From the NCBI RefSeq assembly GCF_000373745.1, contig NZ_KB892368.1, forward strand, positions 1 through 64,000: a DNA stretch of 64,000 bases. The letters run 5' to 3'. The stretch comes from Oligella ureolytica DSM 18253. Its GTDB lineage: Bacteria; Pseudomonadota; Gammaproteobacteria; Burkholderiales; Burkholderiaceae_B. A model generated the notes under the pieces. The model worked only from the letters and a program-made list of their open reading frames with translations. It did not search any database and was not told where the DNA came from. Below, piece after piece: positions 2,926-26,813 of this stretch (position 1 is its first letter; each line of letters opens with the position of its first letter). Both the position numbers and the translations under genes were made by a program.

Positions 2926-4311
2926 TTAGTGTGGCTTGTAAGTAACACGTTCCGGCACTTCTTTGAATGTACCCAAACGGCTCCAAATAGGCATAAAGAA
3001 GAAGAACGCTAAGTAGACTACAGTACTTATCTGAGAAATAAGGTTCAGCAAGTCACTAGGCACCTGAGTACCGATATAGCCTAAGATCACGAAGTTAATC
3101 ATGAACACCGCGTAAACCAACTTGTGCCAGCCCGGACGATAACGAATTGACTTAACAGGTGACTTGTCTAACCAAGGCAAGAAACCAAGGATAACAACCG
3201 TACCACCCATCACCACAACGCCCCAGAACTTAGCATCAAACACGCGTAACGTGATAGCCACAGCAATTAACACGACCGGCCAAACAATCTTCCAAATACC
3301 GCGAGTATTTTTGCTGAAGAACAAACCAATCGCGAAGATCACGCAGAAAGCAACTAACGCCCAAGTAAACTGGTCAGTTGTTGCACGCAACATTGAATAG
3401 AACGGTGTGAAGTACCATACAGGCGCAATGTGCGCAGGCGTCACATACGGGTCAGCAGGAATAAAGTTATTGGCTTCGAGGAAGTAACCACCCATGGTAG
3501 GCGCAAAGAACATAATTGCCGCAAACACCAATAAGAAACCGGCCACACCAAGAATGTCATGCACTGTGTAATAAGGATGGAATGGAATACCATCAAGCGG
3601 ACGACCTTTGTCATCTAGCTTGTCTTTAATTTCAACACCATCGGGGTTATTAGAACCTACTTCGTGCAACGCAATAACGTGCGCCACAATCAGACCGATT
3701 AACACTAATGGAATCGCGATCACGTGGAACGCAAAGAAGCGATTAAGTGTCGCGTCTGAAACAACGAAGTCTCCACGAATCCAAGTAGATAAACCCTCAC
3801 CCACAAATGGAACAGCAGCAAAGAGGTTAACAATAACCTGTGAACCCCAGTATGACATTTGACCCCATGGTAATAAGTAACCGAAGAAGGCCTCAGCCAT
3901 TAGACAGAGGAAAATTGCCACACCAAAAATCCACACTAACTCGCGTGGCTTACGATATGAACCATACAACATACCGCGTAGCATATGTAAATACACTACG
4001 ACAAAGAACATAGATGCACCCGTAGAGTGCATATAACGAATTAACCAACCAAAAGGCACCTCACGCATGATGTACTCTACGGAGGCAAATGCCAATTCGC
4101 CATCAGGCTTATAGTGCATCACCATAAAGATACCGGTCAAAATCTGGATGACCAGTACTAACATGGCTAATGAACCAAAAAAATACCAGAAGTTAAAATT
4201 CTTAGGGGCATAATACTCAGTCATGTGATCTTTGACCATTTTAGTCAAAGGAAAACGTCTATCAACCCAACCAAGAAGACCTGTTGTTTCAACAACTTTC
4301 TCGCCGGCCAT
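2926..4311 (-). CDS. petB: Ubiquinol-cytochrome c reductase, cytochrome b
   Basis: 461 residues, full length with eight predicted membrane helices. This subunit holds both b hemes and the two quinone sites. Paired histidines are visible in the second and fourth helices (RYMHSTGASMFF...YLHMLRG and FFAFHVIAIPL...AHVIALHE). The Qo-site signature PEWY is PVWY here (APVWYFTPFYS), so valine replaces the usual glutamate; I recall this variant from other beta/gammaproteobacteria. Middle gene of petABC. Confidence 0.97.
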   Translation of the reverse strand: MAGEKVVETTGLLGWVDRRFPLTKMVKDHMTEYYAPKNFNFWYFFGSLAMLVLVIQILTGIFMVMHYKPDGELAFASVEYIMREVPFGWLIRYMHSTGASMFFVVVYLHMLRGMLYGSYRKPRELVWIFGVAIFLCLMAEAFFGYLLPWGQMSYWGSQVIVNLFAAVPFVGEGLSTWIRGDFVVSDATLNRFFAFHVIAIPLVLIGLIVAHVIALHEVGSNNPDGVEIKDKLDDKGRPLDGIPFHPYYTVHDILGVAGFLLVFAAIMFFAPTMGGYFLEANNFIPADPYVTPAHIAPVWYFTPFYSMLRATTDQFTWALVAFCVIFAIGLFFSKNTRGIWKIVWPVVLIAVAITLRVFDAKFWGVVVMGGTVVILGFLPWLDKSPVKSIRYRPGWHKLVYAVFMINFVILGYIGTQVPSDLLNLISQISTVVYLAFFFFMPIWSRLGTFKEVPERVTYKPH

Positions 4312-6561: not shown

Positions 6562-7767
6562 ATGTACCGCTATTGGTTGATTTTCTCACAAGCAGTAACT
6601 ATTGTTTTGGCGCTGATTTTTACAATTAGCACAGTCAGACCCGGTTGGCTTGGTCAGCAAATCGAAATCCAGTCACAACCGACTGCCACGGTCAAAATTC
6701 AAGCTGAAGCGATCCCAAATCCAACAAACTCCAATAAAGCTCAAGCACCAATTACAACCACTGCAACCGTTTTTACATCGTATGCAGATGCGGTTAAATT
6801 AGCTGCGCCATCGGTCGTTAATATTTATACAACTAAACGCATCAACTCGCCGCTGCGGGATCTCAATGATATCCCATCACTGCGTCCTTTTATTCAAGAA
6901 CAAAATGAGCGTCAGCGCTTAAGCGATCCCACCAGCCTTGGCTCGGGAGTGATCGCCTCTGAACAAGGCTATATCTTAACCAATTATCACGTCGTTGAAG
7001 CAGCTGACGCGATTGAAGTCCTACTTCACGATGGCCAACGCGCCCCTGCTAAATTTATTGGCGCCGATCCGGACACCGATCTGGCCGTATTACAAATCAC
7101 GTCAACCGGCCTTCAACCGATTAAAACCGATCCCAATCAGGCCCTTAATATCGGTGATGTCGTCTTGGCCATTGGCAACCCGTTTGGGGTCGGCCAAACA
7201 ACGACCATGGGGATTATTTCAGCCCTTAACCGCTCAGGTTTAGGCATCAACACCTACGAAAACTTTATTCAAACAGATGCCGCCATTAATCCCGGTAACT
7301 CAGGTGGCGCACTCATTAATGTCAACGGCAGCTTGATTGGCATCAATACTGCCATTTATTCTGAAGCGCACTCCGGCGGCTCTTTAGGCATTGGCTTTGC
7401 CACACCGGCCAGCACAGCGGTGAAAATTATGGAAGAGATTATAGCCACCGGAAAAGTCTCCCGCGGTTGGCTCGGCGTAGAACCCCAAGACGTAACAGCC
7501 GATCTCGCCAAAGCTTTCAACCTGCCACAAGTACGCGGCGTGATTGTCGCTTCTATCGGTCAAAATAGTCCGGCCGCAAGTGCCGGCCTTGCCGTAGGCG
7601 ATATCATCATCAAGATCAATGACCTACAGGCAATCAATACGCGCCAGATGCTTAACGAGGTAGCGACCTTAAAGCCAGGCACCGTAGTCAAGCTGGAAGT
7701 ATTAAGAAGCGGCCGCCCGCTAGAGTTTAATGTCACGCTAGCACAACGACCGCAAACTTTTGAGTAA
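6562..7767 (+). CDS. Periplasmic trypsin-like protease with one PDZ domain (DegS/DegQ type)
   Basis: 401 residues. The N-terminal hydrophobic segment (about 5-25) is probably an uncleaved membrane anchor as in DegS. The protease domain (about 75-285) has the triad His143 (TNYHVVE), Asp173 (DTDLAVL) and Ser247 (NPGNSGGAL). A single PDZ domain follows (about 300-398), whereas DegP and DegQ usually have two. The architecture fits DegS/HhoB-like proteases of envelope stress control, though many betaproteobacterial orthologues are simply called Do-like. A sigma-E cascade role is inference; no rseA or rpoE is in the window. Confidence 0.9.
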   Translation: MYRYWLIFSQAVTIVLALIFTISTVRPGWLGQQIEIQSQPTATVKIQAEAIPNPTNSNKAQAPITTTATVFTSYADAVKLAAPSVVNIYTTKRINSPLRDLNDIPSLRPFIQEQNERQRLSDPTSLGSGVIASEQGYILTNYHVVEAADAIEVLLHDGQRAPAKFIGADPDTDLAVLQITSTGLQPIKTDPNQALNIGDVVLAIGNPFGVGQTTTMGIISALNRSGLGINTYENFIQTDAAINPGNSGGALINVNGSLIGINTAIYSEAHSGGSLGIGFATPASTAVKIMEEIIATGKVSRGWLGVEPQDVTADLAKAFNLPQVRGVIVASIGQNSPAASAGLAVGDIIIKINDLQAINTRQMLNEVATLKPGTVVKLEVLRSGRPLEFNVTLAQRPQTFE

Positions 7768-22549: not shown

Positions 22550-23944
22550 ATGAAAAACAATCATCAACCCCACCCATACTCCTTTCATCAACTTAACTTA
22601 GCGACCGAGCAGTTGCGTAATTTGCAACAACTTGGCTTTGAGCAAATGACTCAGGTTCAAGAACTTGCTCTGCCGCCGGCATTGGCTGGCGATGACCTGA
22701 TTGTACAGGCCCACACAGGCAGCGGAAAAACCTTGGTTTTTGCTTTGACGATTATGCAAAAGCTGGCACTTGAACTAAACAACGCACAAGCGGTGGTGCT
22801 TTGTCCCACGCGTGAGCTCGCCTCTCAGGTCGCTGACTCCATCCGCCAAGTGGCTCGCGCCTATCCTTCTGTCAAAGTCAGTTTATTATGCGGTGGCAGT
22901 TCGGTGCCTCGACAAATCGATTCCCTGGCACACGGCACTCATATTATTGTCGGTACGCCAGGACGCATTGAGGACCTAATCGCTCGTGGCGCTCTTTTAT
23001 TAGGTGACGTCAACACATTAGTATTAGATGAAGCGGACAAGATGATGGATATGGGTTTTTACGATAGCCTTAGCGCGATTGCTAATGCCTGCCCTCTAAA
23101 GCGCCAAACGCTGATGTTTTCCGCGACCTACACACCGGAGCTGTTAGAGAGAACGGAGGGGTTTCTCATCAATCCACACATGATCCAAGCCATCGACCAA
23201 CAGAAGCCCGCTATCCAGCAAAGCTTCTACGTAGTGGAAGAGGAGGATCGTGCGTCAGCCATCATCAATCTCTTAGACCAACTTCAGCCGCTGTCTACGA
23301 TTGCTTTTTGCAATACGCGTGATGACTGCGAAGTCTTGCAACAGCAACTGACACGAGCCGGGATTCACAGCGCTGTGTTGCACGGCCAAATTGATCAAAG
23401 AGAACGAGAAGACATTATTATTCAATTTGCTAACAACAGCTTAAGCGTCTTAGTGGCGACGGATGTTGCCGCTCGTGGTCTCGACATCAAAGAATTAGAC
23501 TTAGTAATTAATGTGCAAATCTCGCCCAATGCTGACACCCATATTCATCGTATCGGTCGTACGGGCCGTCAAGGCGCAGAGGGTCGTGCAATTACCTTGG
23601 TCAGCAAAGATGAACTATTTCGCAAAAAAAGAATCGAAGAATCATTAGGCACAGAGTTTGAGCTCATGCAAATCCCTTCACGTCGTCGCACTCATTCCAC
23701 GCTCAAACCACCAAGACAAACCATTATGATTCGTGGGGGCAAGAAAGACAAATTAAGAGCAGGTGATATTCTAGGTTCATTGACAAAAAATATGGGACTC
23801 ACCATGGAGCAAGTCGGCAAAATCACGATTCACGATTTTGTCAGTTTTGTAGCGATAGATCGTACTATCGCACCGCAATTGATTCAGCGTTGGCACGCTG
23901 AGACCATCAAGGGCAAGACTCGCAAGATGCGTTTACTACCCTAA
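22550..23944 (+). CDS. dbpA: ATP-dependent RNA helicase DbpA
   Basis: 464 residues. DEAD-box helicase with motifs AHTGSGKT, PTRELA, GTPGR, DEAD, SAT, ATDVAARGLDI and HRIGRTGR in order. The last 75 or so residues (KDKLRAGDILGSLTKNMGLTMEQVGKITIHDFVSFVAI) match the DbpA RNA-binding domain, which directs the enzyme to hairpin 92 of 23S rRNA during 50S assembly. It is divergent from mlaF across 138 bp. Confidence 0.92.
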   Translation: MKNNHQPHPYSFHQLNLATEQLRNLQQLGFEQMTQVQELALPPALAGDDLIVQAHTGSGKTLVFALTIMQKLALELNNAQAVVLCPTRELASQVADSIRQVARAYPSVKVSLLCGGSSVPRQIDSLAHGTHIIVGTPGRIEDLIARGALLLGDVNTLVLDEADKMMDMGFYDSLSAIANACPLKRQTLMFSATYTPELLERTEGFLINPHMIQAIDQQKPAIQQSFYVVEEEDRASAIINLLDQLQPLSTIAFCNTRDDCEVLQQQLTRAGIHSAVLHGQIDQREREDIIIQFANNSLSVLVATDVAARGLDIKELDLVINVQISPNADTHIHRIGRTGRQGAEGRAITLVSKDELFRKKRIEESLGTEFELMQIPSRRRTHSTLKPPRQTIMIRGGKKDKLRAGDILGSLTKNMGLTMEQVGKITIHDFVSFVAIDRTIAPQLIQRWHAETIKGKTRKMRLLP

Positions 23945-24011
23945 TTCACTTGTGATATCAAAGAGTTAATTCCAAAAACTGAGGAACTTATCAGCCAATT
24001 GATAGTCCAAA

Positions 24012-24038
24012 TTAGCACTCAGACAGAGAGAGTGCTAA
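24012..24038 (+). promoter_or_regulatory. Perfect CIRCE operator (HrcA site) upstream of rpoH
   Basis: TTAGCACTC (24012-24020), nine bases, GAGTGCTAA (24030-24038): an exact match to the CIRCE consensus TTAGCACTC-N9-GAGTGCTAA bound by the heat-shock repressor HrcA. It ends 70 bp before the rpoH ATG and overlaps a -10-like TAAAAT (24036-24041), so a bound repressor would block transcription. Confidence 0.9.
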
Positions 24039-24108
24039 AATATACACTGACATTTCCGTATAAGACAGCGTTTTATCTGCGAAATCACCTTAAAGGACAA
24101 ATATTACT

Positions 24109-24999
24109 ATGACAAACCAAGCATTAGCTTTAACTAACCGCGAATTAGCCACACTTGGCTCAGGTTCGATAGGGAGTATTGAGTCATATATTAGTAGTGT
24201 TAATCAAATTCCTATGCTGACGCCTGAACAAGAAAAAGACTATGCAGAGCGCCTACAATACCATGGAGATTTACAGGCAGCCCAATCACTGGTCTTGTCT
24301 CATTTACGCTTGGTCGTGTCGATTGCACGCCAGTATTTAGGTTATGGCTTGCCTCATGCCGATCTTATCCAAGAGGGTAATATCGGTCTCATGAAGGCGG
24401 TTAAGCGCTTTGATATTAACCGCGGGGTACGTTTAGTTTCTTTTGCTGTGCATTGGATTAAAGCCGAGATTCATGAGTACGTGATCCGCAACTGGCGCAT
24501 GGTACGAATCGCCACCACCAAGGCACAGCGCAAGCTATTCTTCAATCTACGCAGCATGCGCCCCGACAGCTCAAGCTTAGATCCTGAGCAAATTCAAGGC
24601 ATTGCAGACAAGCTTAATGTTAAGCCCACCGACGTTGTAGAAATGGAGATTCGCCTGACCGGTCGTGATATGTCACTCGATCCGGGACCAAGCTCACGCT
24701 CTGACGACGAAGAGTTTACACCTATTGACTACCTGGCTGACGAAGAAAATACGCCCTATGAGGTGCTTGCCAGACGCGATCATGAGGAACTACAAACCCA
24801 TGGCTTAGCAGCTGCACTGGAGTCGTTAGATCCGCGCTCGCGTCGCATTGTAGAATCTCGTTGGTTACAAGATGATGGCGGCTTAACCCTTCATCAGCTG
24901 GCTGAAGAGTTTGGTGTATCTGCCGAGCGTATTCGCCAGATTGAGGCCGCAGCGATGAAAAAAATGCGCGCTTTTCTCGGTGAAGATGCCTTGCAATAA
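24109..24999 (+). CDS. rpoH: RNA polymerase heat-shock sigma factor RpoH (sigma-32)
   Basis: 296 residues. Sigma-70 family group 3 factor directing heat-shock transcription. Region 2 (HLRLVVSIARQYLGYGLPHADLIQEGNIGLMKAVKRFD), the RpoH box (QRKLFFNLRSMRP) that distinguishes it from other sigmas, and region 4 with the HTH (TLHQLAEEFGVSAERIRQIEAAAMKKMRAFL) are complete. A perfect CIRCE element in the promoter implies repression by HrcA. A candidate small RNA follows 84 bp downstream. Confidence 0.97.
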   Translation: MTNQALALTNRELATLGSGSIGSIESYISSVNQIPMLTPEQEKDYAERLQYHGDLQAAQSLVLSHLRLVVSIARQYLGYGLPHADLIQEGNIGLMKAVKRFDINRGVRLVSFAVHWIKAEIHEYVIRNWRMVRIATTKAQRKLFFNLRSMRPDSSSLDPEQIQGIADKLNVKPTDVVEMEIRLTGRDMSLDPGPSSRSDDEEFTPIDYLADEENTPYEVLARRDHEELQTHGLAAALESLDPRSRRIVESRWLQDDGGLTLHQLAEEFGVSAERIRQIEAAAMKKMRAFLGEDALQ

Positions 25000-25049
25000 G
25001 TCATCACCGGTTATTCACAAAAAGATACAATTTAAAAGCGATTTTTCTT

Positions 25050-25077
25050 GGAACAAAACGAGAAACCAACTGACTAA
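25050..25077 (+). promoter_or_regulatory. Candidate alternative-sigma promoter of the sRNA
   Basis: GGAACAA (25050-25056), 15 bases, then GACTAA (25072-25077) resembles the sigma-E pattern GGAACTT-N15-GTCTAA. The overlapping CTTGGAA...CCAACT could instead be a weak sigma-32 match. The predicted start falls at about 25083, exactly where the first hairpin begins. Confidence 0.45.
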
Positions 25078-25082
25078 CACAC

Positions 25083-25202
25083 ATGAGCGGCAGAAGATAT
25101 AGCAACTGCGCTCATCATTCGTCCGTTTTTCTCCTCTTTCCCTTCCCCTTGAGGACGAATGCTTACAACACTTCCGGCTCCCTTACCGGAAGTGTTTTTT
25201 TT
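25083..25202 (+). ncRNA. Candidate small RNA downstream of rpoH
   Basis: About 120 noncoding bases that fold into three successive hairpins. Hairpin 1: ATGAGCG (25083-25089) with CGCTCAT (25109-25115). Hairpin 2: a perfect 9-bp stem CATTCGTCC (25116-25124) / GGACGAATG (25153-25161) holding a 28-base loop that is almost entirely C and T, including CTCCTCTTTCCCTTCCCC. Hairpin 3: an 11-bp stem AACACTTCCGG (25167-25177) / CCGGAAGTGTT (25186-25196) followed by eight T, a textbook intrinsic terminator. The C/U-rich loop is complementary to Shine-Dalgarno purines, as in many trans-acting sRNAs. I cannot name a known family. Confidence 0.65.
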
Positions 25203-25225
25203 AGTTATTCTAAAGCGGTATAGAG

Positions 25226-25864
25226 TTATTGAAACTGCTGCAATTTTCGCAAATCGCTCAGCATGTCTTCGATAGGCATACCCTCTCTAAAAAGCAAGAC
25301 AGATCGTGCCTCTTTATCCAAAACAAACACATAAGCACTATGCTCCATCGTGTATTGCTCTCCTGCTATTGGTACTTTGTTGTAAAACACATGAAACGAT
25401 TTAGCCATTGCTGCCACTTGCTCTTGGGTGCCTGTCAGCGCTTTAAAATCAGGATCAAAATAAGACAAGTACTCTGTCAGACGATCAGGTGTATCACGCT
25501 CCGGATCAACAGTAATTAAATACACTTGTAGCTGTTCTGCTTCATCTGCAGTTAACGCAGTTTTTAACTGGCTCAGTTGTAATAAGGTCGTCGGACAAAC
25601 ATCAGGACATAGGGTGAAGCCAAAAAAAACCAAACTGATTTTCCCCTTGAAGTCCTCAAAATAAAATGCCTCACCCCCTTCATCTGTCGCCACTAATTCC
25701 CGACCAAACTCCGTCCCTCGAATATCACTCCCATGAAAATCTGCAGTGGTCAGATTAAATAGATTTCTTAATTGTCCCTGAGCAGAAGAAGTGACCAAGA
25801 AACTGCTGCTCAATCCTAACAATATTAAGCAGCCAACACTCAACAACTTCCTCATCATTTTCAA
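25226..25864 (-). CDS. SCO1/SenC/PrrC family copper-binding thioredoxin-fold protein
   Basis: 212 residues, secreted (signal peptide about 1-28). The copper site is complete: GFTLCPDVCPTT (Cys86, Cys90) and His175 (YTMEHSAYVF). Family members deliver copper to the CuA centre of cytochrome oxidase or act as periplasmic thiol reductases. No oxidase genes are nearby, so the partner cannot be named. It is convergent with the sRNA, whose terminator ends 24 bp away. Confidence 0.92.
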   Translation of the reverse strand: MKMMRKLLSVGCLILLGLSSSFLVTSSAQGQLRNLFNLTTADFHGSDIRGTEFGRELVATDEGGEAFYFEDFKGKISLVFFGFTLCPDVCPTTLLQLSQLKTALTADEAEQLQVYLITVDPERDTPDRLTEYLSYFDPDFKALTGTQEQVAAMAKSFHVFYNKVPIAGEQYTMEHSAYVFVLDKEARSVLLFREGMPIEDMLSDLRKLQQFQ

Positions 25865-25994
25865 CCCTCTTCAAATCGACCCCATGATGTGACCTAAGTC
25901 ACCACTGGACACAGTTCAAGCACTAACTGTTGTTATATACTGAGTGATACAATAATTTTTAATATAAGCTAGTATACATAGGAAGATTTAATCA

Positions 25995-26813
25995 TTGAAG
26001 CGTGAGAAACTGCAGGCGCTCTATAGGCAATTAAACCAAAAAGTACAAGAAGTCCCGGTTAAGGGGTCAAGACCACTCATCATTGCCGACAAAATAGCCG
26101 GATTTATTCATCCTGGGGCAATTCTTGCTCTACAAGACAAGGAATATTGTAAGCAAGACGAGCAGGCGGTTTATTTGGCAGAGTCGTCCATGCCTAAACC
26201 CATCTTGAATGACATTCTACTTGATGTCGCTTTAAGCCTCCGTGCTGCAGGACTGACTAGAGCTTGGCGCGACGAACTACTTAATGTATACGCCGAAGGC
26301 ACCGCCATCGGTCAAATAGAGCGTGCGGCCATGCGTCCTTTGGGTTTATTAACCCAAGCTATTCATTTAAATGGCTGGACCCCTGACGGTGATATTTATC
26401 TACAATTACGAGCCAGCACCAAAGCCTTCGATCCTAATATGTGGGACACCTTGGTCGGTGGTCTGCTCAATGCCGAGGATAGCGTCACCGAAGGTTTAAA
26501 CCGCGAATCAGAAGAGGAAGCCGGGCTCAGTCCAAGTGATATGAAGTTACGCACGCCAATCCGCTCGATTTTGCGAATGCGTCGCAGGCTTCCCGAAGGC
26601 TATCAACTCGAAGACATTTTAGTCAGTGACTGTATCATTCCGCCCGGCACCCAACTAAAAAACCAAGATGGTGAGGTCGAACGTATTGAGTGCTTCACAC
26701 CCAAAGAAGTAGTACAAATGATCGAGGATAGGGTCATTACGATTGAAGCCGCTATTGTGCTCTTAGACAGCCTAATCAATCCCCATGTTAACAATCTACG
26801 TCAATCAACTTAA
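25995..26813 (+). CDS. Nudix hydrolase with N-terminal DUF4743 domain
   Basis: 272 residues, apparently from a TTG start at 25995 preceded by AGGAAG; no ATG is available near the N-terminus. The first 110 residues match the DUF4743-type domain seen in proteins related to fungal and plant thiamine-diphosphate-linked Nudix enzymes. The Nudix box occupies about 155-178 (GGLLNAEDSVTEGLNRESEEEAGL), with all glutamates of GX5EX7REUXEEXGU present. Substrate unknown; oxidised thiamine diphosphate derivatives are one possibility from the family. Confidence 0.85.
   Translation: MKREKLQALYRQLNQKVQEVPVKGSRPLIIADKIAGFIHPGAILALQDKEYCKQDEQAVYLAESSMPKPILNDILLDVALSLRAAGLTRAWRDELLNVYAEGTAIGQIERAAMRPLGLLTQAIHLNGWTPDGDIYLQLRASTKAFDPNMWDTLVGGLLNAEDSVTEGLNRESEEEAGLSPSDMKLRTPIRSILRMRRRLPEGYQLEDILVSDCIIPPGTQLKNQDGEVERIECFTPKEVVQMIEDRVITIEAAIVLLDSLINPHVNNLRQST

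Follow-up and report, generated by a model that had tools for sequence, protein, structure and literature searches.

Behind the heat-shock sigma factor gene rpoH of Oligella ureolytica DSM 18253, three consecutive hairpins are predicted. They raise the question of whether this DNA encodes a small RNA of its own or only the structured end of the rpoH messenger and, in the first case, which sigma factor would read it and on what it would act. The window is the whole stretch of 64,000 nt that was analysed around this locus. The reading preferred here, with a probability of about 0.85, is that the locus encodes an sRNA induced by sigma-E and assisted by Hfq, which masks Shine-Dalgarno sites and is the ortholog of bprN/CT_521 of Bordetella pertussis. 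The elements of the locus are as follows.

24109..24999, + strand: rpoH, heat-shock sigma factor, host gene (NCBIfam NF005143 and TIGR02392 RpoH)
25050..25077, + strand: candidate sRNA promoter of sigma-E type, GGAACAA-N15-GACTAA (conservation in genus and family)
25083..25115, + strand: 5' hairpin (fold)
25116..25161, + strand: C/U presentation hairpin with a 9-bp stem and a 28-nt loop at 25125-25152, the seed (fold, covariation, model R1)
25167..25202, + strand: intrinsic terminator, an 11-bp hairpin and a T-run ending at 25202 (fold, terminator scan)

The host gene is assigned to RpoH by TIGR02392 with an E value of 4e-121. Between its end at 24999 and the hairpins lie the promoter boxes GGAAC (25050-25054) and GACTAA (25072-25077), and transcription is predicted to start at about 25083/25084. 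The RNA would be 120 nt long (25083-25202), lies on the same strand as rpoH and begins 84 nt past the rpoH stop. Its minimum free energy is -41.0 kcal/mol, versus a mean of -22.1 (sd 2.9) for 200 dinucleotide shuffles, none of which is as stable (z -6.6). The three hairpins, the 9-bp stem, the 28-base C/U loop and the terminator of the original prediction were all found again at these positions. The loop of the middle hairpin reads GUUUUUCUCCUCUUUCCCUUCCCCUUGA. The terminator scan recovers the same terminator as the fold; taken alone it is not significant, with one terminator in the 2.1-kb region versus 2.4 expected from shuffles. In the genus, the 5' hairpin has six outer pairs, the sixth being C-G in four of seven sequences, U-A in two and broken in one.

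A small peptide starting from the ATG at 25083, the predicted transcription start, was also considered and was rejected by reading, not by computation. Among the seven genus sequences, indels between the ATG and the stem shift the frame and one sequence has GTG (by reading); the ATG is absent in several other genera. Behind the sRNA lies a convergent gene (25226-25864, - strand) without NCBIfam match, presumably SCO/SenC-like by its CPDVCP motif. Its start region gave the best pairing with the loop among 61 in the window (-18.7 kcal/mol).

DNA similarity finds the element in seven of 61 genomes, its own included, all of the same genus, and one of the eight genomes of the genus has no such match. 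Conservation reaches further when the rpoH loci are read directly. Among the best 30 fetched from the 61 genomes, 27 have the C/U loop within 520 nt downstream of rpoH, where absence of the stems and loop from relatives had been named beforehand as evidence against an sRNA. The three other loci differ from each other: G015 has a model match about 1.4 kb downstream, in G011 the promoter is there but the loop is degenerate, and G029 has no C/U loop within 520 nt downstream. In G011 (L026 2380-2600) the promoter is kept as GGAACTA-N15-GACTAA and the loop is shrunk to the shorter GGUUUCUCCUUACCC.

The stem alignment A2 was built from 26 of the 27 loci, L042 being omitted for its shortened loop and the three loci without loop also lying outside it; 25 distinct rows were counted. 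Of their 250 stem cells, 97.6% are paired, and pairings slid by one to three columns drop to 28-45%. The changes in the stem are compensatory around a conserved pyrimidine core, which the original prediction had named as support. They are two-sided at eight of ten pairs, chiefly C-G versus U-A, and the covariation score is 0.483 versus a shuffle mean of 0.267, a value reached by none of 500 shuffles, with the counts inflated by kinship among the sequences. Further pair types show no excess over shuffles (497 of 500 as high). Within the loop, 16 of 28 positions keep the same base in 90% or more of the alignment rows, a conservation that is in part by construction, the alignment requiring the loop and the named loci having been found by a loop-and-stem pattern. 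The stem covaries around a conserved C/U core, which suggests that selection keeps the presentation of a sequence complementary to Shine-Dalgarno sites.

R1, a covariance model built on the middle hairpin, finds a match in 173 of the family's 268 genomes, covering 35 of its 43 genera; 26 of the matching genomes had trained the model, which leaves 147 of 242 as independent matches, and the large searches used strict filters that lose weak matches. All but two of the genomes listed (G003 and G080) have a single match. Across 399 genomes of the order, 11 matches were obtained, all in this family. We take the searched family to be the Alcaligenaceae and place the sRNA there. In the 20 of 24 relatives from other families whose DNA behind rpoH was read, no such C/U hairpin was found, often just a short terminator; three other-family regions downstream of rpoH show C/U runs of 11-14 nt, of a different kind.

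A pattern search of named genomes gave 97 matches in 96 stretches, and the 80 rows listed belong to Bordetella, Achromobacter, Advenella, Alcaligenes, Castellaniella, Pollutimonas, Candidimonas, Oligella and relatives. The match lies at most 600 nt downstream of rpoH in 84 of the 97. Eight of the remaining ones are cut off by the end of their stretch, two are further off, both in one duplicated Achromobacter locus, and three come without an rpoH that passed the filter; among these three, L116 does have rpoH, missed by the filter by one residue, and would be the 85th such match, and L100 and L136 show none in the DNA examined. The Achromobacter locus L098 carries two copies of the hairpin (3517-3549 and 7251-7283, also seen as G080 C25), 3.7 kb apart and flanking a second, partial RpoH match; this is either a tandem duplication or an assembly artefact. 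The 2.0-Mb genome G021 has a weak R1 match (L253 475-549) at some 7 kb from rpoH, where it coincides in part with a match to Rfam ncS54 below threshold (RF02871; 29.7 bits vs 43); it is perhaps a different RNA.

The original prediction could not place the RNA in a named family, and here a counterpart was found in the literature. In B. pertussis, bprN1 and bprN2, of 80 and 110 nt by Northern blot, map between BP3747 and BP3748 (rpoH) on the strand of BP3748 (Hot et al. 2011, PMC3110155). CT_521, of about 120 nt, was described between bp3747 and rpoH (bp3748) (Kumar et al. 2025, PMC12235514). It is Hfq-dependent, its level rises in mutants of RNase E and RNase III, and it has a C/T-rich conserved region directly before its terminator (PMC12235514). 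By position, size and seed, bprN and CT_521 are taken to be one RNA. Both this RNA and that of Oligella follow immediately after rpoH on its strand, measure 110-120 nt (here a predicted 120) and end at an intrinsic terminator. The seed precedes the terminator in the Bordetella, Achromobacter, Alcaligenes and Oligella loci, all of which fit one pattern (B. pertussis is absent among the 80 named rows listed in this comparison), and R1 spans 35 genera. Differences exist as well: the Oligella stem is CAUUCGUCC versus the CAUCCGUCUC type in the fetched Bordetella loci, its loop has CCCUUCCCC versus CCCCUCCC, and the 5' hairpins differ. The Oligella RNA was filed as an ortholog because it shares place, strand, predicted length and seed with bprN/CT_521, and it is most likely just that, by gene interval and these features. 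The claim of an sRNA at this locus is supported by conservation, by covariation and by a Bordetella counterpart confirmed by Northern blot (PMC3110155, PMC12235514).

The DNA ahead of the hairpins points to a promoter of their own. GGAAC and GACTAA are invariant across the seven genus sequences, in surrounding DNA and a spacer that vary. Scored out of 13, the best GGAACTT/GACTAA pairs of the 27 loci with the loop reach 10 to 13, and the two boxes are separated by 15 nt in 25 of these loci. Ninety-one distinct upstream regions of named genomes were left after matches with less than 140 nt upstream and repeated upstream sequences had been dropped; 84 of these score at least 11/13 and 88 have a spacer of 15, versus 10 of 1820 dinucleotide shuffles that reach at least 11/13, with no preferred spacer. 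The bare GGAAC-N-GACTAA motif is unspecific, with three matches in the genome versus ten for the reversed control. Across the named loci the RNA is predicted to span 94-126 nt (median 118); for the ten of 13 Bordetella loci listed the range is 117-125 nt, compared with about 120 nt for CT_521.

These boxes bear on the possibility that the hairpins belong to the rpoH mRNA, as its structured 3' end or as a fragment processed from its 3'-UTR, and have no promoter of their own. The common strand and the distance of 84 nt from the rpoH stop would suit such an origin, and the 80-nt bprN1 beside the 110-nt form fits processing (PMC3110155). It is nevertheless considered very unlikely, given boxes that are invariant in variable genus DNA and far above shuffles family-wide, and a deletion of the -10 that served as the B. 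pertussis mutant of the sRNA (PMC12235514). The 20 other-family regions that lack such a hairpin behind rpoH argue in the same direction, as does the conserved loop core, which would be useless to a mere stabiliser. The preferred reading stays that of an independently transcribed sRNA.

Sigma-E (ECF02) promoters consist of GGAACTT, a spacer of about 15-16 and a TCTAA-like -10. The sRNA promoter fits this class. Its -10 is GACTAA, or GCCTAA in many Achromobacter loci, whereas the -10 ahead of rpoH is usually GTCNAA and differs at the second base. This deviation could mean that a different holoenzyme reads the promoter or that the site is a weaker one for sigma-E. The DNA upstream of rpoE, scanned as a positive control, gave no good sigma-E match, and the promoter of rpoH was used instead. 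Two elements precede rpoH.

23983..24010, + strand: sigma-E-type promoter of rpoH, GGAACTT-N15-GTCCAA (sequence; compared with the sRNA promoter)
24012..24038, + strand: operator TTAGCACTC-N9-GAGTGCTAA ahead of rpoH (sequence)

The rpoH element shares its -35 and its 15-nt spacer with the sRNA promoter. Two of 100 shuffles score as well as the site at 23983, and in 23 of 30 family loci the element ahead of rpoH is equalled by at most 5 of 100. It is chance-like in four loci (L028, L035, L041, L044; 21-66 of 100) and borderline in three (L031, L040, L042; 7-10 of 100); these shuffles preserve mononucleotide composition only, and scoring used a matrix derived from 72 sRNA promoters. The operator, which we take to be CIRCE, the site of HrcA, sits between this promoter and the gene and is present in exact form ahead of rpoH in 26 of the 30 family loci. 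From these letters, rpoH appears to be under dual control by HrcA and sigma-E. In Bordetella bronchiseptica, SigE transcribes the promoter region of fam (rpoH) in vitro (PMC3490749).

The sigma-like matches over the cut-off in the Oligella genome are RpoD, RpoE, RpoH, a FliA-like protein beside flagellin and a 143-aa fragment; six further ones fall below it. RpoD and the FliA-like protein are presumed identities, from size and gene neighbour. No full-length ECF sigma other than RpoE was found, and an hfq gene is present. The 143-aa ORF resembling a sigma region (L210 1480-1911, G000 C29:9528-9917) lies near a small helix-turn-helix-like gene and is perhaps part of a mobile element, judged by eye. 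Among the 37 family genomes in the set of relatives, all 31 with an R1 match have an RpoE match. Four of the six without R1 match have rpoE, one of these (G011) with the degenerate copy; the only two without RpoE (G014, G029) are both small and also lack the sRNA. This co-occurrence is suggestive, confounded as it is by small genome size.

The family-wide conservation of the sRNA promoter supports its description as sigma-E-like and makes RpoE the likely activator; sigma-E control, read from the promoter letters, is in itself judged probable. The competing view, that a sigma factor other than sigma-E, for instance the housekeeping one, reads the bprN/CT_521 ortholog, which would then not be an envelope-stress RNA, appears unlikely. 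It would account for a -10 unlike the GTCNAA usual ahead of rpoH and could draw on the several ECF-like matches found in larger genomes of the family. A sigma-70-type scan of 23900-26000, however, finds two sites, neither near 25050, and GAACTT with a fixed 15-nt spacer is a sigma-E pattern resembling the rpoH promoter read by SigE. The single full-length ECF sigma of this genome and the two small genomes without RpoE and without sRNA also speak against it. A literature search of open-licence papers returned no report of sigma-E control of bprN/CT_521. In the passages of Kumar et al. that were consulted, the rseA mutant is reported for CT_532 and not for CT_521 (PMC12235514).

The complementarity of the C/U loop to Shine-Dalgarno sites, also part of the original prediction, is supported by its conservation, by covariation of the stem that presents it, and by the published counterpart. 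Against the -25 to +6 regions of 61 window genes, called by a simple rule, the loop pairs with a mean of -8.0 kcal/mol versus -5.9 for gene interiors (p = 5e-5). Four of 200 composition-shuffled loops, scored against one third of the interior windows, match this preference for start regions; composition explains about half of it. A single long, specific target was looked for and rejected: GGAAAGAGGAGAA occurs twice in the genome with at most one mismatch, versus three times for the reversed control, and its sites are the sRNA gene itself and one that is not start-region-like (by reading).

In B. pertussis, RIL-seq gave 22 chimeric partners of CT_521 with a common SD-like motif to which the seed is complementary, and the chimeric reads fall mostly on that C/T-rich seed (PMC12235514). 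These data bear on the suggestion that the loop binds an RNA-binding protein as a decoy or sponge and is not an antisense regulator. A loop core conserved family-wide and the lack of a long target would be compatible with a decoy, yet the position of the reads and the complementary motif of the partners (PMC12235514) make it most improbable, and antisense action through the loop is retained. The repression of many mRNAs, as originally proposed, has been demonstrated only in part, even in B. pertussis. The 22 partners agree with it, and the effects in the promoter mutant, a deletion of the -10, are mixed: tcfA fell, two mRNAs rose significantly, and the amounts of the ptxA and fhaB proteins were unchanged (PMC12235514).

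The following course of events is proposed. Envelope stress would free sigma-E (RpoE), which would transcribe rpoH from the 23983 promoter and, separately, the sRNA from the 25050 promoter. The sRNA would terminate at the intrinsic terminator, whose U-tail would suit Hfq. The covarying stem would keep the C/U loop open, so that CUCCUCUUU and CCCUUCCCC could pair with purine-rich Shine-Dalgarno regions; this pairing would keep ribosomes off a set of mRNAs, which would then decay. For Oligella, transcription of the RNA, its dependence on sigma-E and its individual targets are predictions from sequence and from relatives. On this reading the RNA itself was already known in B. pertussis, where CT_521 is one of two central Hfq hubs (PMC12235514); new here are the covariation model, the range at the level of the family and the sigma-E-type promoter.

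The Rfam scan that the original prediction had proposed retrieved no family at the locus at gathering score. In the 64,000-nt window only a tRNA reaches that score, the five matches at E <= 5 within 24900-25350 are all far below theirs, and the loci of eight relatives gave no match. R1 supplies the family definition that was not found in Rfam and places the RNA in the Alcaligenaceae. Membership in RF02278, the Betaproteobacteria toxic sRNA of the S17/bdhR1 kind, was considered and rejected, this family not being among the five matches. The same genome has a separate RF02278 RNA at C6:42501-42564 (L259 1501-1564), with the stretch UCUCCUCCACCCUCCUCCUUU. The degenerate copy of G011 has a sub-threshold RF02278 score (26 bits vs 50), a hint that the two SD-mimic RNAs, the rpoH-adjacent one and RF02278, may be related.

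Several known RNAs resemble that of Oligella in part. CT_433/S17 of B. pertussis and bdhR1 have C/U-rich stretches complementary to ribosome binding sites before the terminator and many such targets, but they differ in locus and sequence; transcription of S17 begins at a housekeeping promoter, and RNase E processes the transcript (PMC11722255). The sX13 RNA of Xanthomonas also presents C-rich loops on stable stems and acts on G-rich motifs near start codons, but it has three such loops, Hfq is dispensable for it and it belongs to another lineage, which makes it an analogue only (PMC3771888). The CcsR RNAs of alphaproteobacteria, with a CUCCUCCC loop, combine stress-sigma control with C/U loops, and MicA and RybB of enterobacteria are sigma-E-driven Hfq sRNAs. 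A broader view can be offered only tentatively, namely that the Alcaligenaceae have a sigma-E module peculiar to the family, with a single sigma factor behind the transcription of rpoH and, from a second promoter downstream of that gene, of an SD-mimic RNA, as a broad translational brake in envelope stress. If this is true, the module would be a functional counterpart of MicA/RybB, with a generic anti-Shine-Dalgarno loop instead of porin-specific seeds.
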